In this document: positions 18,146 to 20,534 of the stretch, piece after piece
How positions within the stretch are numbered: the stretch's first letter is position 1
Layout of the letters: every line of letters starts with the position of its first letter
Assembly: GCF_010671605.1 (NCBI RefSeq)
Contig: NZ_JAABOO010000004.1
Location: 434,001-498,000, forward strand
Direction of reading: 5' to 3'
DNA from: Leptobacterium flavescens
Lineage (GTDB): Bacteria; Bacteroidota; Bacteroidia; Flavobacteriales; Flavobacteriaceae
Length of the DNA: 64,000 bases
Notes under the pieces: model-generated
Databases searched by the model: none
What the model saw: the letters and a program-made list of their open reading frames with translations, nothing else
Told to the model about the DNA's origin: nothing
Translations under genes and position numbers: made by a program

Positions 18146-19732
18146 ATGAAGAAATTAGCATGCCTGTCCGTTTGTTTGTTATTCTCTTTTACCTCCTATG
18201 CACAGGAGACGAATACTCTGGACGATCGTATTAATGAAAATTTCCGGGCAGCCACTCAGTGGTTTGTCGATGGCATTTTTGCCGAAATACCCATTACTAA
18301 CAGTGTTGGGATCCCCTGGGTTCTTATTGTGCTTATTTTGGGGGCCAGTTACTTTACACTTTATTTTAAGGGGATCAATTTAGGAGGATTCAGGACTTCC
18401 GTCAACATCATCCGCGGAAAATATGACGAACTGGAAGATGAAGGAGAGGTAGAGATCTCTGAGGATGTTATTTCTGCTTCCGGAGACCATCCCGATACTG
18501 TGAGGGTGGAAGGTCATCACGGAGAGGTGAGTCATTTTCAGGCTCTGACTGCTGCTTTATCGGCTACTGTCGGTCTGGGAAATATTGCAGGGGTTGCTAT
18601 TGCATTATCTATCGGAGGGCCCGGAGCTACCTTCTGGATGATCCTGGTGGGAATGCTGGGAATGGCTTCCAAATTTGTAGAGTGCACCCTGGGAGTTGCC
18701 TATCGTGAGATAGATGAGAACGGAGTGGTTTACGGAGGCCCGATGTACTATCTGAAGAAGGGTTTAAGGGAAAAAGGGTTTGCAAAACTGGGAAAAGTAC
18801 TGGCCGTGATCTTCTCTATAATGTGCATAGGAGGTTCTTTCGGGGGAGGGAATATGTTTCAGGTAAACCAGGCTTTTAAATTATTCGAATATGTGACCGG
18901 AGCAGAGGAGAGTTTTATTTATGGTAAAGGATGGCTGTTCGGTCTTCTGATGGCCATTTTCGTGGGGATAGTAATTATAGGCGGAATAAAGAAAATTGCA
19001 AAAGTTACAGATAAGATCGTACCGGCTATGGTGGTCATGTACGTCATAGCGGTACTCGTTATTCTCGGGGTCAATTATCAATCAATACCGGATGCTTTCC
19101 GGGCGATCCTAAATGGTGCTTTCAGCCCGGAGGGTATTGCCGGTGGTTTTGTGGGAGTATTGATCCAGGGATTTAAAAGAGCGGCTTTTTCCAATGAGGC
19201 CGGAATAGGCTCTTCGTCCATAGCCCATTCGGCCGTTAAGACCAGGTATGCTGCCAGTGAAGGGCTGGTGGCACTCCTGGAACCTTTTATAGATACGGTA
19301 GTCGTATGTACGATGACGGCCCTGGTACTGATCATAACAGGACAGATAGAGATCGGCCGGGTTATATCCGATGAGCAGGGTGTCATCCTTACTTCTAATG
19401 CGCTTGCCAGCGGGATCTCCTGGTTTCCGTATCTGCTCACTCTGGCGGTGGTGCTCTTTGCTTTCTCCTCTATGATATCCTGGTCTTATTACGGGTATCA
19501 GGCCTGGTCCTATCTTTTCGGAAGGGGTAAGCGTACCGAATATACCTATAAAGTAATTTTCTGCCTCTTTGTAATTGTAGGTGCTGCGGCGAGTTTAAAT
19601 GCAGTAACAGACTTTTCCGATGCTATGATCTTTGCTATGCTGGTACCGAATATGATCGGTTTGTTTATCCTGACGCCCAGAGTAGCTCAGGAATTGAAAA
19701 AATATAGAAAAGCAATTAAGGTCATAGATTGA
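18146..19732 (+). CDS. alsT: AGCS family sodium:alanine symporter
   Basis: This inner-membrane protein couples Na+ entry to uptake of alanine, glycine or a related amino acid. Family hallmarks include ALSATVGLGNIAGVAIA near residue 140 and FKRAAFSNEAGIGSSSIAHS near 345. About ten membrane helices follow. The N-terminus carries an extra signal-like segment (LLFSFTSYAQ) and a short periplasmic stretch before the first core helix, which is common in Bacteroidota members. At 528 residues it is slightly longer than Bacillus AlsT. The substrate is inferred from the family. Confidence 0.93.
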   Translation: MKKLACLSVCLLFSFTSYAQETNTLDDRINENFRAATQWFVDGIFAEIPITNSVGIPWVLIVLILGASYFTLYFKGINLGGFRTSVNIIRGKYDELEDEGEVEISEDVISASGDHPDTVRVEGHHGEVSHFQALTAALSATVGLGNIAGVAIALSIGGPGATFWMILVGMLGMASKFVECTLGVAYREIDENGVVYGGPMYYLKKGLREKGFAKLGKVLAVIFSIMCIGGSFGGGNMFQVNQAFKLFEYVTGAEESFIYGKGWLFGLLMAIFVGIVIIGGIKKIAKVTDKIVPAMVVMYVIAVLVILGVNYQSIPDAFRAILNGAFSPEGIAGGFVGVLIQGFKRAAFSNEAGIGSSSIAHSAVKTRYAASEGLVALLEPFIDTVVVCTMTALVLIITGQIEIGRVISDEQGVILTSNALASGISWFPYLLTLAVVLFAFSSMISWSYYGYQAWSYLFGRGKRTEYTYKVIFCLFVIVGAAASLNAVTDFSDAMIFAMLVPNMIGLFILTPRVAQELKKYRKAIKVID

Positions 19733-19814
19733 AAATTTTGTAAATTTATAAGTAGGAAATGCATCTTTTTTTCATTTGCTGAGTCTTATATATGAACACA
19801 AAAAATTTGAACAA

Positions 19815-19916
19815 ATGAAAAATAAAAATTGTAACTGCACCTGCTCCTCCTGTGTGGAAGGACAGTGCCAGAATTGTAGTTGTGTTGAATGCAGCTGCTC
19901 AGGATGTAATTGCTAA
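19815..19916 (+). CDS. Cysteine-rich microprotein (33 aa, 11 Cys), metallothionein-like or leader peptide
   Basis: A 34-codon frame runs from ATG 19815 to TAA 19914-19916. The product has 33 residues with cysteines at 6, 8, 10, 13, 18, 21, 23, 26, 28, 31 and 33, arranged as CxC and CxxC pairs. It has no signal peptide, hydrophobic stretch or aromatic residue. An intrinsic terminator follows 25 nt after the stop and a sigma-factor gene begins 72 nt after it. The composition suggests a metal- or thiol-binding peptide; the position equally allows a cysteine-codon leader peptide. I know no named family for it. Confidence 0.6.
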   Translation: MKNKNCNCTCSSCVEGQCQNCSCVECSCSGCNC

Positions 19917-19940
19917 AGATTAAAATAAAACAATTGAAGA

Positions 19941-19965
19941 ACAAAGCCGCTTTTAGTGGCTTTGT
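19941..19965 (+). terminator. Terminator between the Cys-rich ORF and sigZ
   Basis: A 10-bp stem ACAAAGCCGC/GTGGCTTTGT with one G-U pair and a 5-nt loop is followed by TTTGCTTG. It separates the microprotein from the sigma gene, whose start is only 24 nt downstream, leaving no room for a normal promoter between them. Confidence 0.75.
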
Positions 19966-19988
19966 TTTGCTTGTAATACGAGATAGTT

Positions 19989-20534
19989 ATGACTACTTCA
20001 GCTATTTGGGATTCTTATGCGGATGATGTGAGAAGGTTTATTCTGAGCAGGGTTGGAAATGAAAGCCAGGCAGATGATCTTCTCCAGGATGTTTTTACCA
20101 AAATTCACCTGAAGGCAGATCAGTTAAGGGATGATTCCCGGATGAAATCCTGGATATTTACCATTGCAAGGAATACCGTTTATGACTTTCTGAAGAAAAA
20201 CCGCTTTGAGGAGGAATTACCCCAGGAACTACCCGATGAAGTGACTGAGGAAAAGAACACCCATACAGAAAAGGATTGCCTGCCGGGAATAATCAGGTCC
20301 CTTCCAAAGAAATACAGGGATCTTTTGTTTTTATCCGATATAAAGGGAATTAAACAAACAGCTCTGGCAGAACAATTCGACCTTCCTCTTCCAACCGTAA
20401 AATCAAGAATACAAAGGGCACGGAAAATGATAAGCCAGAGTTATATGGACTGTTGTGATTATAAGCTGAATGCAGAAGGAAAACTGGTAGGAGAGATCAA
20501 GGAAAAGGAAAACTGTAAAATGTGTAATCACTAA
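19989..20534 (+). CDS. sigZ: SigZ-like ECF RNA polymerase sigma factor with Cys-rich tail
   Basis: The 181-residue protein has sigma region 2 at about 8-70 (NESQADDLLQDVFTKIH, RMKSWIFTIARN) and region 4 at about 98-150 (LPKKYRDLLFLSDIKGIKQ, followed by a recognition helix). The tail has a CC pair near 158-159 and CKMC near 176-179, matching the C-terminal cysteine cluster of SigZ-type factors and offering a metal or redox switch. No anti-sigma gene is adjacent. The upstream neighbour is the Cys-rich microprotein; the Nudix gene follows by 23 nt, probably in the same transcript. Confidence 0.87.
   Translation: MTTSAIWDSYADDVRRFILSRVGNESQADDLLQDVFTKIHLKADQLRDDSRMKSWIFTIARNTVYDFLKKNRFEEELPQELPDEVTEEKNTHTEKDCLPGIIRSLPKKYRDLLFLSDIKGIKQTALAEQFDLPLPTVKSRIQRARKMISQSYMDCCDYKLNAEGKLVGEIKEKENCKMCNH

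Follow-up and report, generated by a model that had tools for sequence, protein, structure and literature searches.

The window analysed here, a 64,000-nucleotide stretch of the Leptobacterium flavescens genome, contains a compact unit in which a small cysteine-rich open reading frame (ORF) is followed by a hairpin and then by a gene for an ECF sigma factor. A first-pass annotation, made from the letters of the window, had described this arrangement, and its conservation in relatives places it beyond chance. The features of the locus are the following:

19760..19786, + strand: predicted SigZ-dependent operon promoter with the ECF-type motif TGCATCTTTTTTTCATTTGCTGAGTCT; its N17 spacing is identical in 56 of 56 non-redundant loci, it has one exact match in the genome, and it tracks the presence of sigZ
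19815..19916, + strand: metallothionein-like ORF of 33 amino acids with 11 cysteines, conserved in relatives
19938..19968, + strand: hairpin of 14 predicted base pairs followed by T-rich sequence, a candidate terminator or attenuator between the two genes (folding, shuffled controls)
19989..20534, + strand: SigZ-family ECF sigma factor with a cysteine tail (NCBIfam SigZ models best but below their cut-offs, Pfam sigma regions 2 and 4, AlphaFold model)
20277..20279, + strand: codon of linker Cys97, a candidate metal ligand (with His92)
20451..20525, + strand: cysteine tail, C155 C156 ... C176 xx C179

The family sample comprised 60 orthologous sigma loci, 56 of them non-redundant, whose named hosts are all Flavobacteriaceae and include Aquimarina, Kordia, Tenacibaculum, Polaribacter and Winogradskyella. 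At all 60 loci, a cysteine-rich ORF of 31–37 amino acids lies shortly upstream of the sigma gene. Among the neighbours of the 56 non-redundant loci, there is no conserved third gene. A gene for an AgcS-type sodium:alanine symporter lies upstream of the operon at window positions 18146–19732, probably as mere shared synteny; it was rejected as an operon member because it is upstream in only 12 of the 56 loci and is no obligate neighbour. A Nudix gene was also rejected, being absent from the recurrent neighbours of those loci.

The product of the small ORF, MKNKNCNCTCSSCVEGQCQNCSCVECSCSGCNC, has 33 residues, 11 of which are cysteine, as the annotation had counted. These 11 invariantly spaced cysteines are nearly always kept among the 60 family loci, and at least 11 cysteines are retained in 51 of the 56 non-redundant ones. 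In an alignment of 22 sequences, all 11 cysteine columns are invariant and Gly16 is nearly so. Across 23 gap-free ORFs, pS is 0.70 and pN 0.25 (dN/dS ~0.24), and the cysteine codons TGT and TGC are used interchangeably. Judged by these comparisons, the small ORF encodes a protein under selection. Very short, about one-third cysteine (11/33) in CxC and CxxC arrangements and conserved in its spacing, the peptide has the sequence features of the metallothionein functional class, and it would be expected to bind d10 metals as thiolate clusters. Searches of Pfam, NCBIfam and PDB sequences returned no match, and neither a curated model nor a solved member places it in the bacterial SmtA/BmtA metallothionein family; it would represent a family of miniature metallothioneins absent from curated libraries. 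No second such ORF was found elsewhere in the same genome.

Cysteines are lost or the ORF is frameshifted in 5 of the 56 loci (four from Aquimarina, and L061). At L044, L033, L035, L053 and L061, the small ORF shows such changes with the sigma gene and promoter intact, possibly a recent decay. Conversely, the peptide occurs without this sigma factor in eight family genomes. The metallothionein-like ORFs of sigma-less family genomes (L117 and L119–L124) mostly lack the promoter motif described below, and one of them (L120) has a CDF exporter gene nearby. In L117, an apparent degenerate promoter remnant accompanies lost cysteines, which fits the expectation after loss of the sigma factor.

The downstream gene encodes a protein of 181 amino acids that matches PF04542 and PF08281 above cut-off and scores 79.3 against the TIGR02937 cut-off of 42.9; it has regions 2 and 4 and no region 3, as do ECF members of the sigma-70 family. 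Among all NCBIfam sigma models, the best are those for SigZ (TIGR02959 and NF007215), which align over the full length with 158.3 bits against a cut-off of 168.65 and 172 bits against 212, respectively. Because neither curated cut-off is reached, we treat the protein as a close SigZ relative by sequence rather than a certified member. The AlphaFold model (mean pLDDT of 85.6) resembles solved ECF sigma factors: the sigma2 and sigma4 domains look normal, the linker is floppy, and a short tail with strand elements follows residue 156; solved ECF structures align to it only up to about residue 154. Among 55 family sigma factors, C97 in the linker and C155, C156 and C176 in the tail are invariant, C179 is present in 54 and H92 in 53. 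The linker thus carries a single conserved cysteine, Cys97, together with His92, and has CC in one subclade. The annotation had correctly noted the ending of the protein, with CC at residues 155–156 and CxxC at 176–179, but its inventory omitted the linker cysteine. In a phylogenetic tree, most metallothionein-linked sigma factors fall in one supported clade (95/84), and at least one metallothionein-linked pair (L171/L172) stands apart.

Upstream of the small ORF, the motif TGCATCTTTTT-N12-(A/C)GTCT is near-invariant at all 56 non-redundant loci. The distance from TGCATC to GTCT is exactly 17 nt at every one of them, and GTCT usually lies 25–34 nt 5′ of the start codon. In L. flavescens, the motif has a −35-like TGCATCTTTTT and a −10-like GTCT and reads TGCATCTTTTT-N12-AGTCT; ECF −10 elements typically contain a GTC core. 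The regulatory picture drawn in the annotation had left this element out. The exact pattern occurs once in the genome, and further SigZ sites there were rejected, since matches with one mismatch (four) were as frequent as those of a reversed control (four). Among 149 family genomes, the motif is found in 18 of the 24 with the sigma factor and in 3 of the 125 without it. In g131, a sister genus whose members group with Tenacibaculum in the phylogeny, the corresponding counts are 40 of 42 and 0 of 17, and the reversed-pattern control gave no match. We predict that the motif is an ECF-type promoter recognised by this sigma factor.

Between the two genes, the annotation had placed a 10-bp terminator 25 nt past the stop codon of the small ORF. 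A hairpin is indeed present there; it begins 21 nt past the stop and is predicted to have 14 bp. In all 55 testable loci, the hairpin exceeds mononucleotide-shuffled sequence in stability (z of −3 or lower, median −5), and its sequence is unrelated between lineages despite its constant presence. It sits 7–25 nt 5′ of the sigma start in most loci and is followed by a moderately T-rich tract (5.0 T per 10 nt, against 3.9 expected). A simple promoter and terminator scan listed neither the hairpin nor the promoter motif. The possibility of a vegetative promoter between the hairpin and sigZ was rejected, because TAnnTTTG is not enriched there (3 of 56 loci, against 3.3 expected). The view that this interval leaves no room for a promoter therefore holds, and the suggestion that sigma expression depends on read-through gains support from the sole conserved promoter lying upstream of the small ORF.

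The same motif precedes other genes in relatives. Beyond the metallothionein–sigZ pair, the sites in genus g131 lie before genes for DUF3703, CDF, CzcA-type RND and ZntA-type exporters and a TonB receptor. The site before DUF3703 (PF12487) is found in about ten genomes, ~385 nt before the metallothionein site. At L195 (1501–1881), L196, L199, L205, L207, L209 and L220, the DUF3703 gene and a SigZ-type promoter of its own immediately precede the promoter of the metallothionein, a position that suggests a metal-related role for DUF3703. Other sites precede a His-rich CDF exporter related to ZitB (G131, G499, G506, G528, G537 and G489), a CusA/CzcA-family RND pump (G503), a ZntA/CadA-type P-ATPase (G512) and the TonB receptor (G534). 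One extra site in the genus (G487), inside or antisense to a gene, was read as chance. SigZ relatives occur in 41 of 345 genomes across Bacteroidota, with the motif before sigZ itself elsewhere in the phylum. Differently spaced cysteine-rich peptides carry the motif up- or downstream of sigZ at L153, L154, L157, L160–L162, L171 and L172, and the motif also precedes genes for arsenite methyltransferase (ArsM; L163, L165 and L167) and ArsI/CadI (L168). These arsenic genes near SigZ relatives are candidates for sigma-controlled arsenic resistance. Genes for ACR3, ArsC, MerTP and an ArsP-like permease are frequent neighbours of SigZ relatives in Bacteroidota. At L176 and L181, the gene upstream of the SigZ relative resembles selD (selenide-water dikinase) on visual inspection, and the motif stands before both sigZ and a PAP2-like gene; a link to selenium is possible.

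We consider it fairly likely that the locus is an autoregulated metallothionein–sigma operon: the SigZ-family ECF sigma factor would have a cysteine-based metal sensor of its own, and the hairpin would hold its level under that of metallothionein. Comparison among relatives establishes how the operon is laid out, which promoter motif it has, that this motif is linked to the sigma factor and that the hairpin is present; from there, we infer metal binding, the direction of the sensing switch, the identity of the metal, termination at the hairpin and the feedback. A rise of a thiophilic divalent metal in the cytoplasm, most likely Zn(II) or Cd(II), would lead to its binding by the linker cysteine C97, perhaps with H92, and by C155–C156 and C176-x2-C179 of the tail. 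The metal-loaded sigma factor would become active with no need for an anti-sigma factor and would take RNA polymerase to its one dedicated promoter before the 33-residue metallothionein gene. Most transcripts would stop or be trimmed at the hairpin, yielding much metallothionein, and read-through would supply slightly more sigma factor, a positive autoregulation. Metallothionein would then lower the free metal and switch the sigma factor off. By analogy with Fe(II) in OrbS, metal could instead inhibit the sigma factor. The first of the annotation's two proposals was a metallothionein-like buffer produced in surplus relative to a sigma factor that senses metals or thiols. It is well supported by the conservation, by the promoter that both genes share and by the regulon of relatives, with zinc or cadmium as the probable metal.

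Several parts of this scheme can be read differently. The inducer is probably zinc or cadmium, because the closest larger regulon consists of Zn/Cd-type efflux genes, in a genus that has the motif before CDF, CzcA and ZntA-like exporters. It could also be As(III), Hg or Cu, because other SigZ lineages adjoin arsenic or mercury genes. The same operon might thus respond to arsenite, mercury, copper or disulfide or electrophile stress rather than to Zn/Cd; motif-sharing relatives adjoin genes for ArsM, ArsI/CadI, ACR3, ArsC and MerTP, and As(III) binds to vicinal cysteines (CC, CxxC), which are also open to oxidation, but in view of the exporters we regard this as unlikely. The hairpin probably acts as a terminator, placed as terminators are before the sigma start and with an excess of T. 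Because its T-tract is only moderately T-rich, however, it may instead stabilise or process the mRNA, so that RNA decay sets the sigma level. The long stems and the AT-rich genome are in keeping with this variant, which would change one step of the main model and to which we give a limited, minority weight, a little above that of a different inducer.

The role of the peptide is a further point. It accompanies the sigma factor at every family locus, and both proteins are rich in cysteine, as might be expected of a dedicated sigma-binding partner, an anti-sigma factor or metal donor, rather than a buffer. Yet other SigZ lineages have differently spaced cysteine peptides or none, the peptide exists without sigZ, and the promoter is common to other efflux genes; we consider a dedicated partner improbable. 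The second proposal of the annotation, a leader peptide sensing Cys-tRNA, by which ribosomes stalling at the 11 cysteine codons would let polymerase read through into sigZ when Cys-tRNA is scarce, draws on the many such codons immediately 5′ of a conserved hairpin. In a leader peptide of a cysteine attenuator, the peptide would be tied to the regulated terminator of the downstream gene. Here, by contrast, it is found without the sigma factor in eight family genomes, and other lineages have cysteine-rich peptides downstream of sigZ, each with its own copy of the motif. Moreover, cysteine spacing and Gly16 are conserved, the regulon of relatives is metal efflux, and the predicted fold has no obvious antiterminator, in line with the annotation's own remark. 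Attenuation by Cys-tRNA was therefore rejected as very improbable.

The proposed metallothionein–sigma operon, a two-gene unit of a marine Flavobacteriaceae-type bacterium conserved across the family, appears to be a defence circuit against heavy metals that has escaped description, because in relatives zinc/cadmium exporters and arsenic genes have this promoter as well. More tentatively, and with slightly less than even confidence, we propose that the SigZ-type sigma factors of Bacteroidota form one class of one-component, anti-sigma-free sensors of soft metals and metalloids, with one promoter type (TGCRTCYTTT-N12/13-CGTCT) and repeated recruitment of miniature metallothioneins unrelated to one another. 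In Flavobacteriaceae, the regulon would have collapsed to a single promoter with two products in a hairpin-fixed ratio, a complete sensor–effector loop in which metallothionein and the sigma tail compete for the same metal. If the operon works as described, SigZ-type sigma factors of Bacteroidota gain a predicted promoter, regulon and signal, and this would be the first sigma-controlled metallothionein, as far as our literature search showed. The motif makes the SigZ regulon readable from sequence alone across the phylum, and the loop, with its two genes, is compact enough for reconstruction as a metal sensor.

In the literature searched, we found no link between a sigma factor and a metallothionein, no regulon, promoter or signal for SigZ, and no description of a system of this layout, as the annotation had anticipated. 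The parts are of known kinds (an ECF sigma factor with a cysteine tail, a metallothionein, autoregulation); what appears undescribed there is their combination, along with the peptide family, the promoter and the regulon. The SigZ family (TIGR02959/PRK09637) is the best match over the full length, with scores here under both curated cut-offs. The SmtA/SmtB operon of cyanobacteria also sets a short cysteine-rich metallothionein beside its regulator; SmtB, however, is a zinc-dependent repressor of the ArsR type that is divergently transcribed (PMC7387436), whereas the regulator here is a sigma factor encoded 3′ of the metallothionein-like gene on the same strand, with a hairpin between them, and the 33-residue peptide has no detectable relation to curated families. 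According to the consulted parts of PMC8999054 and PMC9023288, CorE, CorE2 and OrbS sense Cu, Cd/Zn and Fe, respectively, through cysteine tails without an anti-sigma factor. As at our locus, CorE and CorE2 of Myxococcus xanthus (ECF44, now ECF238) are ECF sigma factors with no linked anti-sigma gene, a C-terminal cysteine extension, a cysteine in the sigma2–sigma4 linker and a connection to metal-resistance genes; those parts do not mention a metallothionein gene (PMC8999054, PMC9023288). CorE2, described there as Cd/Zn-activated, has the tail CC-x3-C-x2-C-x-C and a linker CxC (PMC8999054, PMC9023288), in contrast to the tail CC-x19-CxxC and the single linker cysteine, Cys97 with His92, found here. 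OrbS, the iron sensor of Burkholderia, likewise replaces an anti-sigma factor with a metal-binding cysteine tail, as would the protein studied here, but it is inhibited by Fe(II) and controls siderophore genes. With C155, C156, C176 and C179 near-invariant beyond sigma4, our sigma factor shares the cysteine-rich C-terminal extension of the CorE-like group; we do not file it there, because the linker CxC motif and the CorE tail spacing are missing, and by its anatomical resemblance to CorE, CorE2 and OrbS we predict that its activity depends on metal.
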